A DNA stretch of 10,038 bases from a bacterium (GTDB taxonomy: Bacteria; B130-G9), in contig JAGHCW010000244.1 in NCBI GenBank assembly GCA_021160245.1, positions 1 through 10,038 on the forward strand, written 5' to 3'. Below are positions 1 to 10,038 of the stretch, one piece after another. A program made the position numbers and the translations under genes. The notes under the pieces were generated by a model. It saw only the letters and a program-made list of their open reading frames with translations, was not told the DNA's origin and ran no database searches. How positions within the stretch are numbered: the stretch's first letter is position 1; each line of letters opens with the position of its first letter.

Positions 1-2973
1 CTTCAGGAGCTCAAGGTTCCCCATAATCGCCGTCAGGATGTTGTTGAAATCATGTGCGACGCCTCCCGCCAGACGCCCAATCGCTTCCATCTTCTGCGCC
101 TGAAGAAGCCTCTCCTCGACCTTTCTGCGCTCCGTGATGTCCCTCGACACTCCGAGTATCGCGGTTGCCTTGTCACTCTCATCGCGCAGAAAGGTCACAC
201 GGGTCTCAGTCCAGACTGTGCCGCCGTCCTTGCAGAGCATCTCAAGCTCCAGCGTGCGAGAGCGATGAAGGTCCTTCTGCTCGGAACTCTCCAGCTCTAT
301 TTCCTCTTTGAACACATCTTGAACAAGCTTCAGCGAATCAGGGGTCAGCCCATCCTCTAACGTATGGGACATCGCTTCTTCCGGACTGAAGCCCGTTAGG
401 CGCTCGATCGAGGGACTTATGTAAAGGGATTGCATTGTCGAAAGGTCCCTCACCCAAACCATGTCGGAGATATGCTCCGCAAGAAAATAATAATCCTTCT
501 CCCTCTTGCGCAGCGCCTCCTCCGCCTGCTTCTGCTCCGTAACGTCGGTAATCAAGGCAAAGCAGCCGTTGTGTTCGCCAGACTTGCCATCAAGCGTCGT
601 CGCGCTAAAACGTGTGTAAACGTCCCCGCCAGTTTTGCTTTTCAGGACGACCTCGTAGCTGCGGTGGATGGTAGTCTCAATGCTCCCCATTTGGTCCGCG
701 AAAATCTTCGAGTTCTCGTCATCAACGAAGTCCAAGGGGGTCTTGCCCAACATCTCATCGCGGGTGTAGCCAATCATGTCGCAAAGAGCTTGATTAACGT
801 CGAGCGTCTTGCGGTTGCTGTCAAGCAGCCAATAGCCCTCCGAAGTTGTCTCAATGAGCCTTCTGTATTGCGATTCACTCTCCCGTAGCGTCTCATCCGC
901 CCGCTTGCACTCTTCCTCTGTCTTCATGCTGTGAAGCGCAAAAGCTAAGTCATCTGCCAGCTCCATGAACAAGGAACGCTCATCTTCGTCCGAGGTGAGT
1001 TGGGCCGGGATGGAGACGCCCAAGAGGCCATACACCTTTCCACGGTATTCCAACCGGATGACAAACGCTCCTCCGTGGGCGTAGGCGGATGATAGAGGGC
1101 AGTCTTTGCACTCCGAACGCACGTCTTGGACTGCTCTGATCTTAAGCTGCTCCAACACAGCTTGAGCACAATCGGTGAGCTCGCCTCGCTTGAACAGTTC
1201 CAAAATGGGTTGGATATCCTCGTCCAAGTCGGACTCGGCTGCGGTCAAGAGTTGCCGTGACTCGTCCAGCAGCGCGATCCAGGCGTGATTATAGCCTCGG
1301 CTCTCGGTGAGGTTCTCACAGGCACGCTTAATCAACCTATCGCGGTCCTTCTCCTGAGTGATCAGCTGATTGACGTTGCGGATGGCGCGAAGCGACAAGT
1401 TCAAGTGCTCTATTCTCTCTCTCGACCGCTTGCGGTCCGTGATGTCTGCGAAGATGGCGACGAACTGGCCTCGGACAGGAGAAAACGCGGATATGTCATA
1501 GTGCCTCTTGAGAGCTTCGCTGTACTGCTCAAAGCGGATCGGTTCCCCGGTCAATGCGACACGCCCATATATTTCAATGAAGTGTGAATCTTCCATACCG
1601 GGCAGCACCTCTGTTATGCGTTTGCCGCGAATATCGCTCGCCTTCAGGCCCGTAAGCTCCTCAAAGGCCCGATTGACGTCGAGAAACATGTAGTCAGTTG
1701 GGGTTCCTTCATCATTCAGCACGATTTCGTGAAGAGCAAAGCCATTGATGGAGTGGTCAAAAAGACTACGGTAACGCTCCTCGCTTGCCTGTAACGTCTC
1801 CTCCGCCTGCTTGCGCGCTTCTTCCGTCTCAATGCTGTGAAGTGCAAAAGCCAGGTCATTTGCCAGCTCCGTGAACAAGGAACGCTCTTCTTCGTCCGAG
1901 GTGAGTTGAGATCGGATGGAGACTCCCAACAGGCCATACACCTTTCCACGGTATTCCAGCCGAGTAACATACGCCCCGTTGCCAGTATGTAGGGGCGACA
2001 GAGGACAGCCCTCGCACTCGAGCCCAATCTCTTCAATTACCAATATGCCGGGTTGCTCAAGCGCAATTTGGCAGCACCGGGTCAGCTCGCCTCGCTTAGT
2101 TAGCTCGATAACGTGCTGGAAATCCTCGCCCAAGCCGGACTCGGCTGCGGTCAAGAGTTGCCGTGACTCGTCCAGCAGCGAGATCCAAGCGTGATTATAG
2201 CCTCGGTTCTCGGTGAGGTTCTCACAGGCACGCTTAATCAGCCTATCGCGGTCCTTCTCCTGAGTGATCAGCTGATTGACGTTGCGGATGGCGCGAAGCG
2301 ACAAGTTCAAGTGCTCTATTCTCTCTCTCGACCGCTTGCGGTCCGTGATGTCCAGCAATGAGGCGACACTTCTCTTGGTTCCAGGGATCAAGCCTACGCA
2401 GAGCAGTATCTGCTTGACGTTTCCCTGCCTATCTACGAACTCGAACTCATACTCGTTGGGCGCCTCAACGCCCTGCTGCCTCCTTGTGCGGTGATAATCC
2501 TTCATTCTCGCAAGGTCTGAGGACGCCACAAACTCCGTCCACTTCATCTTGCCCTCGAGCTCATTCTTGCTGTAACCGCTAAGCTCTTCGAATCCGGTGT
2601 TGACCATAAAGAGCAGCATGTCATCTTCGACGATGATGGTGGCGGCCGAGGTGTTCTCGAAAATGGCTCTATAGCGCGCCTCGCTCTCCCGAAGCGCCTC
2701 CTCGGCCTTCTCCCGCAGAAAGGCGTATAATAAGAAAACCCAGAGCGCCGGTTTCAGCACCTTGAAGTAGTCCGAAATAGAGTCCAGCGACTCGGTAATT
2801 CCCGACCATTCAAGGAAATTGCCCAGGCTTTCAAACAGGATCAGTGCGAAAAGGCCCATCAACAGCAGCTTGATGTTCCGTCGAAAAGCCCGGCCCCAGC
2901 CTCCTAATAGTTTGATGATGGCTGCAATCGCCGCAGCGAAGCAGACAAGATCAAAAAAGGCCACAAGGCTCAT
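1..2973 (-). CDS. Membrane-anchored multi-PAS/GAF sensor histidine kinase (3' end outside window)
   Basis: The reading frame is open for 991 codons from an ATG at 2973 to the window edge with no stop. The first ~90 residues hold about three hydrophobic segments (about 3-24, 36-55, 73-86), so the protein is probably an inner-membrane sensor. Then follow PAS1 (about 97-212), a GAF-like domain (about 235-385), PAS2 (about 396-514), a second GAF-like domain (about 537-687), PAS3 (about 695-815), PAS4 (about 820-945) and the start of HisKA, with the H-box GGVAHDFNNIL and phospho-acceptor His974. The N-x-x-L-style H-box is typical of hybrid or NtrB-like kinases. The ATPase domain, and any receiver domain, would lie outside the window. 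Each GAF carries a C-x2-CPL motif (ECEGCPL, ECKDCPL), a possible metal, redox or structural site. PAS domains end in DIT(D/E)RK-type linkers. The start overlaps the stop of the upstream small membrane gene (ATGA), implying translational coupling. Signal and target genes are unknown. Confidence 0.93.
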   Translation of the reverse strand, partial: MSLVAFFDLVCFAAAIAAIIKLLGGWGRAFRRNIKLLLMGLFALILFESLGNFLEWSGITESLDSISDYFKVLKPALWVFLLYAFLREKAEEALRESEARYRAIFENTSAATIIVEDDMLLFMVNTGFEELSGYSKNELEGKMKWTEFVASSDLARMKDYHRTRRQQGVEAPNEYEFEFVDRQGNVKQILLCVGLIPGTKRSVASLLDITDRKRSRERIEHLNLSLRAIRNVNQLITQEKDRDRLIKRACENLTENRGYNHAWISLLDESRQLLTAAESGLGEDFQHVIELTKRGELTRCCQIALEQPGILVIEEIGLECEGCPLSPLHTGNGAYVTRLEYRGKVYGLLGVSIRSQLTSDEEERSLFTELANDLAFALHSIETEEARKQAEETLQASEERYRSLFDHSINGFALHEIVLNDEGTPTDYMFLDVNRAFEELTGLKASDIRGKRITEVLPGMEDSHFIEIYGRVALTGEPIRFEQYSEALKRHYDISAFSPVRGQFVAIFADITDRKRSRERIEHLNLSLRAIRNVNQLITQEKDRDRLIKRACENLTESRGYNHAWIALLDESRQLLTAAESDLDEDIQPILELFKRGELTDCAQAVLEQLKIRAVQDVRSECKDCPLSSAYAHGGAFVIRLEYRGKVYGLLGVSIPAQLTSDEDERSLFMELADDLAFALHSMKTEEECKRADETLRESESQYRRLIETTSEGYWLLDSNRKTLDVNQALCDMIGYTRDEMLGKTPLDFVDDENSKIFADQMGSIETTIHRSYEVVLKSKTGGDVYTRFSATTLDGKSGEHNGCFALITDVTEQKQAEEALRKREKDYYFLAEHISDMVWVRDLSTMQSLYISPSIERLTGFSPEEAMSHTLEDGLTPDSLKLVQDVFKEEIELESSEQKDLHRSRTLELEMLCKDGGTVWTETRVTFLRDESDKATAILGVSRDITERRKVEERLLQAQKMEAIGRLAGGVAHDFNNILTAIMGNLELLK
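926..1446 (-). repeat. Internal duplication, copy 2 (GAF + linker coding unit)
   Basis: This segment of the kinase gene matches 1832-2352 at a constant offset of 906 bp (302 codons). The sub-segment 1218-1446 differs from 2124-2352 at 6 of 229 positions by eye, and 1336-1446 is identical over 111 bp. The sub-segment from 926 to about 1055 is roughly 90% identical to its partner. The middle (about 1066-1217) is clearly diverged. It encodes about residues 510-683, the linker helix plus the second GAF-like domain. Confidence 0.9.
1832..2352 (-). repeat. Internal duplication, copy 1 (GAF + linker coding unit)
   Basis: This is the partner of 926-1446. It encodes about residues 208-381: the DITDRKR end of PAS1, the linker helix and the first GAF-like domain. 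Both ends of the unit are highly conserved at DNA level, including synonymous positions, while the core coding for the region around the C-x2-CPL motif has diverged. This suggests a recent duplication or ongoing gene conversion with divergence of the presumed sensing core. Confidence 0.9.
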
Positions 2974-6999: not shown

Positions 7000-7971
7000 T
7001 CAGACGCCCAAAGGCCCGCGAATGTCAATCAATAGAGACTTATCCAATTCCACTTCATCGACTCTTCTATTGTATATGTGAATTAGCAGCGCAAACTGCT
7101 TGGGTGCTTCCATGCTCGAGAAGCTGGCTAATTCATCAACATTCTGAGCAACAAAGGACTCAATTGACTGAACTACGATCTTGCCTGGAGCCTCCAATTC
7201 CGCCAGCTGTCTGGCCGCCTCAAACTTGCTGTCAGCGACAAGGAGGTATGCCCTTAATCCGTCGACAAGGTTTTCGTGACACCTCCGACAGACTTCAGAA
7301 TGAGGCGCCACAGTCACGTGGAAAACTGTCTCGCGCATGAGAAAATCTCCGGGTCGGCCACGTTGTTCATCCGCAGCGCTGCTGCAGATGTTTTCGATCT
7401 TCTCGTCTGGAAATCGCAACTGGAGTTTGGCGCCAACAAGGTATTCCGCGACTTGCCCTTCTTTGCCCTTCGCGCATGCGGCAGCAAGTAGGCTCCTGAC
7501 AATATGCCACGTTGTCTTGGACTTATCATACACTACTATTAGGCGCTCGCTATTGTGATACTCACTGATCTTCTCAACGAGAAACCTCTGCAAATGCTCC
7601 AGCAAAATGTTCCTGTCATCTTCATCAATCTCATTCAAATGACTTTCTTCGAGAGCGCGGAGCATTCGGTATATTCGATCGTGGTTCCCCCGATTCGTGC
7701 GGCCCGCCTCGCTGACAAATGCTCTTGTCTCACCAAAACTCGCCAATATGGTCTTCAGTGCGCCACGAGATATTCCGGATAGCTGACCCTTACCCGGCGT
7801 GCAATGGTCTTCGAGCTTAAGCGTAAAACGAGTCTTCAGACGCTCAAGGACGATAAGTGCCGCAGCTATTGTGCCACGCGCTGGAAACTGGGTACCTTTG
7901 ATCTTCGGTAGATCATCGTACCAATTTTCAAAAACATCTAGAATCTCTATCTTGTGGCTCATCTTAGCCAC
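7000..7971 (-). CDS. Probable type II restriction endonuclease (DUF4928-like)
   Basis: A 323-residue soluble protein with no signal peptide or membrane segments. From memory of the family it resembles DUF4928 proteins, which sit beside C5-cytosine methyltransferases as presumed restriction enzymes. Matching features are GRTNRGNHDRIYRMLRAL (90-107), VAEYLVGAKLQLRFP (174-188), RGRPGDFLMRETVFHVTVAP (204-223) and a C-terminal IESFVAQNVDELA (270-282). The nuclease core could be a variant PD-(D/E)xK site: E176 in a helix, D209 in GDF, E214, and H218 where a lysine would be expected. It overlaps the methyltransferase gene by 13 bp, with methylation encoded first, the safer order for host protection. 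The start MAKMSH offers two ATGs nine bases apart (7971 and 7962). GC counted by hand on two 60-base lines was 42-45%, against 58% on two lines from neighbouring genes. Family assignment is moderately sure; cleavage activity and site are unknown. Confidence 0.7.
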   Translation of the reverse strand: MAKMSHKIEILDVFENWYDDLPKIKGTQFPARGTIAAALIVLERLKTRFTLKLEDHCTPGKGQLSGISRGALKTILASFGETRAFVSEAGRTNRGNHDRIYRMLRALEESHLNEIDEDDRNILLEHLQRFLVEKISEYHNSERLIVVYDKSKTTWHIVRSLLAAACAKGKEGQVAEYLVGAKLQLRFPDEKIENICSSAADEQRGRPGDFLMRETVFHVTVAPHSEVCRRCHENLVDGLRAYLLVADSKFEAARQLAELEAPGKIVVQSIESFVAQNVDELASFSSMEAPKQFALLIHIYNRRVDEVELDKSLLIDIRGPLGV

Positions 7972-9665
7972 TCGGCGTCAGAAGGTCTTAGAACTTCACC
8001 GTGAAGCAGCTCCGCAACCACTGGATTTAGATAGTATTTCGCAATCCACCTTATTACCTGCACGCAGACCGCGTCGCCAAAACCGAAAAGGGCCTGGTTC
8101 AAAGGAACTGTGATTTTGTAGTCGTCGGCGCCCATCAGTCTCGCACACTCCCTTGATGTCAATAAGCGAACGGAGTAACGGCCCTTTCCGGCCCTGAAAA
8201 GAATCTGCCTCCCACTTCCCCCCCGGGGCGTACGCAGGCAACCTGCTATCCCATCAGTTCGCAGCTCCGCCATCGAGCGTCCTTTTCTAACTCGCCGGAA
8301 AACAGTTCCATATGACCATTCGGCGTCCGTCATCATTTGTTCCGCTATCCTCCGATGACGCGGGCTCATCTGATTAAGTAAGTATTCAGCCCTCTCATCG
8401 TTCCACCAGAACGCCGAATCTTCTGGCAAGTCCTCCAGTATTGCCTCAAGCGGCTTTGAGGCTGGCTCCGGTTCTGGCAGCACACGCAGGCGCCATCGAA
8501 TGTCGCGGTTGGATAGTATGAATTTCATTAGCGACTTGGGCCTGACTACACTCTCGCGCCTGATTACGTCAAAGGGATTATCCGTGTCCTCTCCGTCTGA
8601 CAAGATGCCAACAACAAATAATCGGGGTCGGCTTTGTGGGACAAACGAGGATGCGTCAAGCATGAAGGCGTCAACTGAATACCCTAATAAATTCAACGCC
8701 AGCAAGGCTTCGCGGAAATCATTTCCTTGGTTAGACCTCATCAAACCCAAGACATTTTCAATTAGGATTAGCGGGGGCTTCCTTTCGTCAAGCTCCTTGA
8801 GGATAGCAATGAAACGCCAATAGGCGGAGGAATGCTTTCCGCTTAATCCCCGGCAGGCCCCCGCGAGTGAAAGATCATTGCAGGGAAATGATGCCGTAGC
8901 CAAGGACACCGTCGGTATTCTCTCTGCAGACAATTTCCAGATGTCATCAAGGAGAAAATCAGATTCAGCGTTCGGGAAGTTCTCTCCATACATTTCATAC
9001 TTTTTTTCATCTATGTCATTTGCAAACGGGACCGACCAACCTTCATCTTCCAGCGCACGGCGCATAAGGCCAATCCCGGCGAAAAACTCAGCCACAGAAC
9101 GATGCGCAAGAAGGGAATACTGGGAGGAATCGATCTCGCCCCTAAGAGTGGCAAGCGTCGTTGCGACGCATGTATCTAAATTATCCTGAATGTCGCTTTC
9201 CCAGAATCTGAGAACCGACCATCCCTTCGAAAGGAGCGCCTCGGTTACTCGACAGTCCCGGCTCATATTGCCCCGGATCTTTTTGAGCCAATAGTCCTTG
9301 GAGGCTGTGTGGTCAAATTGGTCCTCCAGGCAGCTGAGCCCGCGTCGCTTCCACTGCCGACCATGCCAGAAGTCACCGTCAACAAAGACCGCTAGACGGC
9401 GTGAGGGAAAGACAATGTCCGGTTTCCCATCAAGGTCTCTCCTGCAAGTCCTATAGCGAAGCCCTTTTTTCCAAATGGCTTTCCGTAGCCTTATTTCTGG
9501 CGTTGTATCTGATGAATGAACTCGTCTCATCAATTCCGATACGTTCGTCAGTTTGCTGAGCGTCAACTGCTCCCCGGACATACTCCGCGTCTCCATACTA
9601 TCGCTGTTTGGCACCTGCAGCAAGCACACCCACCTTGGATGCAAATCCACATCGAACAAGCCCAT
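7959..9665 (-). CDS. Fused Vsr-type mismatch endonuclease and C5-cytosine DNA methyltransferase
   Basis: A 568-residue two-domain protein. Residues about 42-160 are Vsr-like: LMRRVHSSDTTPEIRLRKAI, then KPDIVF (D83, the catalytic-type Asp), FVDGDFWHGRQW (H101), KDYWLKKIRGNMSRD and GWSVLRFWESDI. Vsr enzymes nick beside T:G mismatches made when 5-methylcytosine deaminates. Residues about 190-545 are a C5 methyltransferase: motif I AEFFAGIGLMRRAL, motif IV SFPCNDLSLAG with catalytic Cys262, motif VI IENVLGL (E303), motif VIII QSRPRLFVVG, a target-recognition region of about 355-490, motif IX RLLTSRECARLMG, and motif X GFGDAVCVQVIRW. All core motifs are present, with N263 where PCQ is commonest. 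The SD for the ATG at 9665 is poor; ATGs at 9596 and 9581, both before the Vsr core, are alternatives, the latter with GGAG nearby. The gene overlaps the restriction gene. Recognition sequence cannot be predicted by eye. Confidence 0.93.
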   Translation of the reverse strand: MGLFDVDLHPRWVCLLQVPNSDSMETRSMSGEQLTLSKLTNVSELMRRVHSSDTTPEIRLRKAIWKKGLRYRTCRRDLDGKPDIVFPSRRLAVFVDGDFWHGRQWKRRGLSCLEDQFDHTASKDYWLKKIRGNMSRDCRVTEALLSKGWSVLRFWESDIQDNLDTCVATTLATLRGEIDSSQYSLLAHRSVAEFFAGIGLMRRALEDEGWSVPFANDIDEKKYEMYGENFPNAESDFLLDDIWKLSAERIPTVSLATASFPCNDLSLAGACRGLSGKHSSAYWRFIAILKELDERKPPLILIENVLGLMRSNQGNDFREALLALNLLGYSVDAFMLDASSFVPQSRPRLFVVGILSDGEDTDNPFDVIRRESVVRPKSLMKFILSNRDIRWRLRVLPEPEPASKPLEAILEDLPEDSAFWWNDERAEYLLNQMSPRHRRIAEQMMTDAEWSYGTVFRRVRKGRSMAELRTDGIAGCLRTPRGGSGRQILFRAGKGRYSVRLLTSRECARLMGADDYKITVPLNQALFGFGDAVCVQVIRWIAKYYLNPVVAELLHGEVLRPSDAEWLR

Positions 9666-9778: not shown

Positions 9779-9864
9779 TGTGTTTCTTCTACCATCAACA
9801 TAAGTGACGTCCTCAAAGCCGTTTCAGTCTCACGAAAATTTCCTGACCTGGATTTGCTTGAAAA

Positions 9865-9880
9865 CGGCGCAGGTTTTGCG
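9865..9880 (+). promoter_or_regulatory. Candidate sigma-54 (-24/-12) promoter
   Basis: The plus strand reads CGGCGC-AGGTT-TTGCG. The invariant GG (9866-9867) and GC (9878-9879) are separated by exactly 10 bases, as in TGGCAC-N5-TTGCA, and the TTGC half is intact. Three less critical positions differ. A transcript would start near 9890, about 30 bases before the ATG at 9920. One chance match of this quality in about 250 bp is possible. Confidence 0.4.
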
Positions 9881-9907
9881 GAAACTATCCAATAATAGCA
9901 AATCGCA

Positions 9908-9913
9908 GAGGAG
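9908..9913 (+). promoter_or_regulatory. Ribosome binding site of the plus-strand gene
   Basis: GAGGAG followed by six bases and ATG at 9920-9922. It is the main support that the short truncated reading frame at the edge is a real gene. Confidence 0.75.
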
Positions 9914-9919
9914 TGTAAA

Positions 9920-10038
9920 ATGAGTATCAACGAAGAGATGATCGAAAAACTTGTTCGGGAGTCTCTGGCCAAACTCGGCCAAACGGATTCAACCGCAACC
10001 GTTCATAAAGCGCCCGTTTCCACACCTATTGGCGCCGC
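9920..10038 (+). CDS. Truncated gene with microcompartment encapsulation-peptide-like N-terminus
   Basis: Thirty-nine codons are visible before the window ends. The protein opens MSINEEMIEKLVRESLAKLG, an amphipathic helix with I/L/V at 3-4 residue spacing, followed by a Thr/Ala/Pro/Val-rich flexible stretch (residues 21-39). This helix-plus-linker pattern is known from enzymes targeted into bacterial microcompartments, such as CoA-acylating aldehyde dehydrogenases (PduP/EutE-like), phosphotransacylases and some aldolases and lyases. The catalytic domain is outside the window, so the enzyme cannot be named. A strong SD and a sigma-54-like promoter precede it, and it diverges from all other genes here. 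Alternatively it could be an unrelated protein that happens to start with an amphipathic helix. Confidence 0.65.
   Translation, partial: MSINEEMIEKLVRESLAKLGQTDSTATVHKAPVSTPIGA

Follow-up and report, generated by a model that had tools for sequence, protein, structure and literature searches.

Bacterial microcompartments of the FRAG types (FRAG1-7) have shell genes spread over as many as six loci and a triplet of BMC-P genes (PMC8217296). The FRAG genes, found in many candidate phyla, are mostly remote from known enzymes. Since the shell genes mostly do not adjoin enzymes, the study that catalogued the FRAG types did not settle their function (Sutter et al. 2021, PMC8217296). We found no later work on FRAG types, beyond that study, in the open-access literature. 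Also relevant is the ACI microcompartment of Acidobacteria, with a class II aldolase that has a C-terminal encapsulation peptide (EP), a BMC-P triplet, and a remote aldehyde dehydrogenase (PMC8217296).

We analysed a 10,038 nucleotide stretch of bacterial DNA, hereafter the window, that ends within a putative microcompartment cargo gene. The source genome shares with FRAG systems separate shell gene places, three BMC-P genes, the lack of a main locus, an aldehyde dehydrogenase, and a host from a candidate phylum. What sets the present case apart is that likely cargo can be proposed, namely an aldehyde dehydrogenase with an EP and an aldolase that ends in a tag-like helix. The likeness to ACI comprises a class II aldolase, here with a tag-like C-terminal helix, the BMC-P triplet, and a distant aldehyde dehydrogenase. 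However, the ACI main locus unites the BMC-P triplet and BMC-H, whereas the window genome has no main locus. The class II aldolase and acylating aldehyde dehydrogenase of PVM and PVM-like (fucose/rhamnose) systems also occur in the window genome, and the closest tree relative of our dehydrogenase, from Dorea, sits in a PVM-like sugar-kinase/aldolase locus. Those loci are compact, in contrast to the dispersed genes described here. Finally, a likeness to SPU (sugar phosphate) systems is seen in relatives of the enzyme, most of which (Chloroflexota, Gemmatimonadota) have shell genes at their loci. DeoC (PF01791) and RpiB (PF02502) are encoded in both relatives' loci checked (L063 and L111). Unlike in SPU, neither was seen beside the window enzyme or shell genes. 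What is new here is the proposed cargo set for a FRAG-type genome; the scattered-shell pattern itself was catalogued in 2021 (PMC8217296). The combination of a tagged dehydrogenase, an aldolase bearing a tag-like helix, and a scattered shell set provides a testable pathway for a FRAG-type organelle.

Identity of the gene at the window edge

The window is an entire contig (C229) of a 3.43 Mb genome (G000; 244 contigs, 94.8% complete). Hence, the gene at its edge was cut by the assembly. From an ATG at position 9920, on the + strand, a frame stays open to the contig end (9920..10038). This gives 39 codons, plus 2 nt, encoding MSINEEMIEKLVRESLAKLGQTDSTATVHKAPVSTPIGA. The sequence contains a Shine-Dalgarno element (GAGGAG, 9908-9913, + strand) 6 nt before the ATG, in line with the preliminary description. 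A search of 40 other genomes with the window 39-mer gave a single significant match (E = 8e-4), to contig C52 of a genome from a different genus of the same family (G001). The N-termini are 51% identical, and AAGGAGG is found at the place in G001 corresponding to the Shine-Dalgarno element. Comparison of the first 21 codons gives 8 identities, 6 synonymous differences, and 7 non-synonymous differences. A chance open frame is ruled out by the G001 ortholog. Hence, given the G001 N-terminus, the codon differences, and an encoded helix in register with those from other phyla, we conclude that the window frame is coding.

In G001, the N-terminus (MSIDEEQIARLVRETLAELGQ...) leads straight into a CoA-acylating aldehyde dehydrogenase of the EutE/PduP branch. 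The ortholog is in two pieces (C52 and C103). The best NCBIfam match for the N-terminal part is PRK15398 although, being a partial sequence, it falls below the full-length cut-off of the model. Two of the three PF00171 genes in the window genome are intact. The remaining one, the only member that is 5'-truncated, begins inside the protein at base 1 of contig C71. This part encodes 444 amino acids, with identities of 79% and 77% to the two parts of the ortholog. Its beginning, ASGPLFTTVDEAV..., matches the end of the G001 linker (ASGPAFASVDEAV), and the frames fit. Contigs C229 and C71 have no overlapping bases. Because of this, we infer the join from frame, family, exclusivity, and the ortholog; the window gene almost certainly continues at base 1 of C71, as judged from these sequence features. 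In the C71 part, the catalytic cysteine of the family is residue 243 (FDHNVLC), which is near-invariant in 58 sequences. The closest solved structures to the C71 enzyme include 5jfl and 4c3s, which we take to be microcompartment aldehyde dehydrogenases. The gene product therefore has the fold (EutE/PduP-branch PF00171) and catalytic cysteine of a microcompartment-type CoA-acylating aldehyde dehydrogenase, one of the enzyme families anticipated in the preliminary description. The enzyme was not found in two further genomes of the phylum, G002 and G003, with assemblies that are 86% and 83% complete, respectively.

The N-terminal peptide in relatives of the enzyme

Residues 1-21 form the predicted encapsulation peptide, an N-terminal helix (MSINEEMIEKLVRESLAKLGQ) encoded at 9920..9982 on the + strand. 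This is followed by a poorly conserved linker, rich in Ser, Thr, Ala, and Pro, that separates the peptide from the enzyme core (9983..10036, + strand). To place these elements in context, we scanned the C71 protein against 84,980 named genomes and obtained 57 relatives from many phyla. Shell genes at their loci were sought in flanks of up to about 8 kb each side, using HMMs made from shell proteins of the window genome's family. The enzyme is within about 10 kb of shell genes in 48 of the 57 relatives. Each of the 48, judging by inspection of the aligned upstream sequence, carries the helix in an N-terminal extension. Two relatives on short contigs have the helix, with no shell gene in view. 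Seven Actinomycetota loci, which belong to one clade, have neither helix nor shell genes in view. The association between helix and shell genes among the 57 relatives gives a Fisher p of 1.4e-7, uncorrected for relatedness.

In alignments, the window helix is in register with its counterparts at the N-termini of microcompartment aldehyde dehydrogenases from other phyla, including shell-linked relatives. The hydrophobic moment is ordinary compared with shuffled sequences (p = 0.11-0.38). Hence, homology rather than amphipathicity carries the case for the peptide, and amphipathicity was discarded as stand-alone evidence. The amphipathic helix that had been proposed is thus homologous to shell-linked helices, but unremarkable in its moment alone. 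The flexible linker proposed alongside it agrees with the variable linker sequence and length across relatives. It agrees too with an AlphaFold model of the Dorea sister protein (mean pLDDT 70), in which helix 3-20 is followed by low-confidence residues 20-31 and then the enzyme core. Since 48 of 57 relatives are near shell genes, and all 48 have the helix, it is well supported by sequence comparison that the window gene encodes an encapsulated cargo enzyme. The G001 fusion likewise upholds the earlier proposal of a cargo enzyme with an N-terminal targeting peptide. It follows that a terminal peptide can identify cargo where gene neighbourhood cannot.

As a separate observation, the aldehyde dehydrogenases of the seven Actinomycetota loci without peptide or nearby shell genes (L100-L103, L105, L106, and L110) are closely related to the microcompartment enzymes. 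This clade is a possible case of natural loss of encapsulation.

Shell genes of the window genome and its relatives

The preliminary description placed the gene first in a microcompartment operon and predicted shell proteins to the right. The content of both genomes with the gene shows otherwise. On C71 (7.8 kb), the dehydrogenase is followed by a HicB-like ORF, ornithine carbamoyltransferase, a PKD-domain (PKD-repeat) protein, and a dipeptidase; no shell gene is present. Similarly, contig C103 of G001 has no shell gene in 25 kb downstream of the enzyme, and the first 20 kb that were read contain unrelated genes. Note that neighbouring genes, other than those with HMM matches, were named by reading translations. 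A downstream region lacking shell genes, along with a gene body from outside microcompartment families, had been suggested as grounds for doubting the proposal. Downstream shell genes are indeed lacking but the gene body is of a microcompartment family. Hence, the cargo gene was right and the operon was wrong.

Whole-genome scans for PF00936 and PF03319 found shell genes in each of the four genomes compared from this phylum (G000-G003), dispersed among unrelated genes and, in G000 and G001, located away from the dehydrogenase. G000 and G001 each have two BMC-H genes, one tandem BMC-T gene, and three BMC-P genes. The less complete G002 and G003 have five shell genes each. PF03319 genes number three in G000, G001, and G003, and two in G002. 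The six shell genes of G000 are on five contigs, with BMC-T and one BMC-P on the same contig about 4.3 kb apart, and the six of G001 are on six contigs. No compact main locus, of the ACI or PVM type, was found in the genomes examined.

The shell genes lie amid unrelated neighbours and their positions are kept, in part, in sister genomes. Conserved neighbourhoods are leuS/aldolase/BMC-H, helicase/BMC-T (with the helicase immediately preceding), and queE/BMC-P. In the last of these, queC/queD/queE-like genes precede BMC-P; another BMC-P is beside TonB-like and PerM-like genes. We conclude that the scattering is old in the family, and not an assembly effect, because the neighbours are unrelated and partly conserved. 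Contig fragmentation was considered as a cause, and rejected for G000 and G001, where kilobases of unrelated genes flank most shell genes. For instance, the BMC-P gene on contig C94 is flanked by 14.7 and 29 kb of contig sequence. The proteins are well conserved: the main BMC-H is 94-99% identical between G001, G002, and G003. In all four genomes, BMC-T has the motif CPGKY, presumably the iron-sulphur site of PduT. No upstream motif common to the dispersed genes rose above shuffles in 21 pairs. Overall, dispersed shell genes without a main locus, and a BMC-P triplet, are both found, and the layout fits the FRAG organisation.

One gene next to the shell set deserves mention. Just after the second BMC-H, a 198-amino-acid protein is encoded (L045 7553-8146, on contig C21 of G000), with orthologs on G001:C28 and G002:C173. 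It has an N-terminal motif, ITPLAxD, common to RpiB N-termini of SPU loci; the rest is without a Pfam match. Possibly, this is an unrecognised microcompartment accessory protein.

Aldolase and partner enzymes

Each genome has a single class II aldolase (PF00596) gene, which adjoins that for the main BMC-H where the contig shows it. In G000, G001, and G003, the aldolase C-terminus is a tag-like helix (SGELVAEVLAAIKREFAEI in G000). The hydrophobic moment of this stretch, which was picked by eye, gives p = 0.02. In a phylogenetic tree, the sister of the dehydrogenase is the Dorea enzyme (L060, support 97/91). The locus of the latter has a class II aldolase, an FGGY kinase, shell genes, and a weak fucose-isomerase-like match. 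PduL (PF06130) is absent from all four genomes, which have full or near-full shell sets, while control genomes were positive. A classical phosphotransacetylase (Pta) is present. Iron alcohol dehydrogenase gave weak matches only, none convincing. Hence, without PduL or a convincing iron alcohol dehydrogenase, the usual core pathway is incomplete. Because of the aldolase with its tag-like helix beside BMC-H, and the Dorea sister locus, our best guess is a sugar-phosphate aldolase pathway, followed by conversion of aldehyde to acyl-CoA.

The proposed organelle and competing explanations

As far as can be read from sequence, we regard the enzyme family, the peptide, and the genome-wide dispersed shell set as established. 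Most probably, the tagged dehydrogenase is encoded apart from the other microcompartment genes and recruited in trans to a FRAG-type organelle together with the aldolase. The dehydrogenase would be made apart from the shell, then drawn by its peptide into an organelle built from the dispersed BMC-H, BMC-T, and BMC-P genes. The fuculose-phosphate-type class II aldolase, with its tag-like C-terminal helix, would join the same organelle and cleave a sugar phosphate, freeing lactaldehyde or a similar aldehyde. The dehydrogenase would then turn this aldehyde into acyl-CoA, and the shell would hold the reactive aldehyde. A bolder version, which we hold tentatively and lean slightly against, casts a FRAG microcompartment as a sugar-phosphate aldolase organelle whose assembly is wholly in trans. 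The terminal peptides on the two enzymes would then be all that visibly ties them to the shell. In this reading, no two parts, whether cargo or shell, adjoin except aldolase and BMC-H, and some shell genes sit within housekeeping neighbourhoods, following queE or the helicase. If true, this would assign a concrete function to a FRAG type for the first time.

Logically, the finding that shell genes flank the enzyme in most relatives, and that the window genome does encode shell genes, could indicate an ordinary operon with shell genes just past the contig end. We consider this very unlikely. The contigs that carry the rest of the enzyme, C71 in G000 and C103 in G001, are without shell genes, and those of both genomes are elsewhere amid unrelated genes, as at C94. 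For the G001 neighbourhood, contig content refutes an operon. We give fractionally less credence still to the idea that the window gene specifies a different EP-tagged protein, with C71 the remainder of another gene. While the lack of sequence overlap between C229 and C71 would allow this, the ortholog fuses the same N-terminus to the same enzyme. Furthermore, C71 has the only 5'-truncated family member, which starts at the matching linker position.

The enzyme might instead be cytosolic and stand alone, its helix a relic of a lost locus, while the scattered shell genes have ceased to build an organelle or serve a different one. The dispersal of those genes, the lack of PduL, and the failure to find the enzyme in two of four genomes all speak for such decay. 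Conversely, G000 and G001, which have the gene, both keep the helix; the shell set, pentamers included, is conserved at high identity; and the aldolase with its tag-like helix is kept beside BMC-H. We judge a relic improbable, if less so than the preceding alternatives, and favour recruitment in trans.

The region upstream of the dehydrogenase gene

The preliminary description gave the gene its own divergent promoter region. As that description implies, the next gene upstream (7959-9665) is on the minus strand and so divergent. A block at 9857-9886 on the + strand (CTTGAAAA...GGAAACT) is conserved with G001, 20 of 30 bases being common to both (p about 0.05). That this is the promoter is suggestive only, and a sigma-70 scan found no + strand site upstream of the gene. 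The divergent neighbour is part of a type II restriction-modification pair, directly upstream of the dehydrogenase gene (7000-9665, minus strand). Its ORF of 568 amino acids encodes a fusion of a Vsr-like nuclease domain (PF03852) with a C5 cytosine methyltransferase (PF00145), and is overlapped by a DUF4928/REase_II gene. At the opposite end of the window (1-2973, minus strand) is a large multi-domain ORF that, from its translation, resembles a sensor histidine kinase and contains two near-identical internal repeats (RSRERIEHLNLSLRAIRNVNQLITQEKDRDRLIKRACENLTE...).
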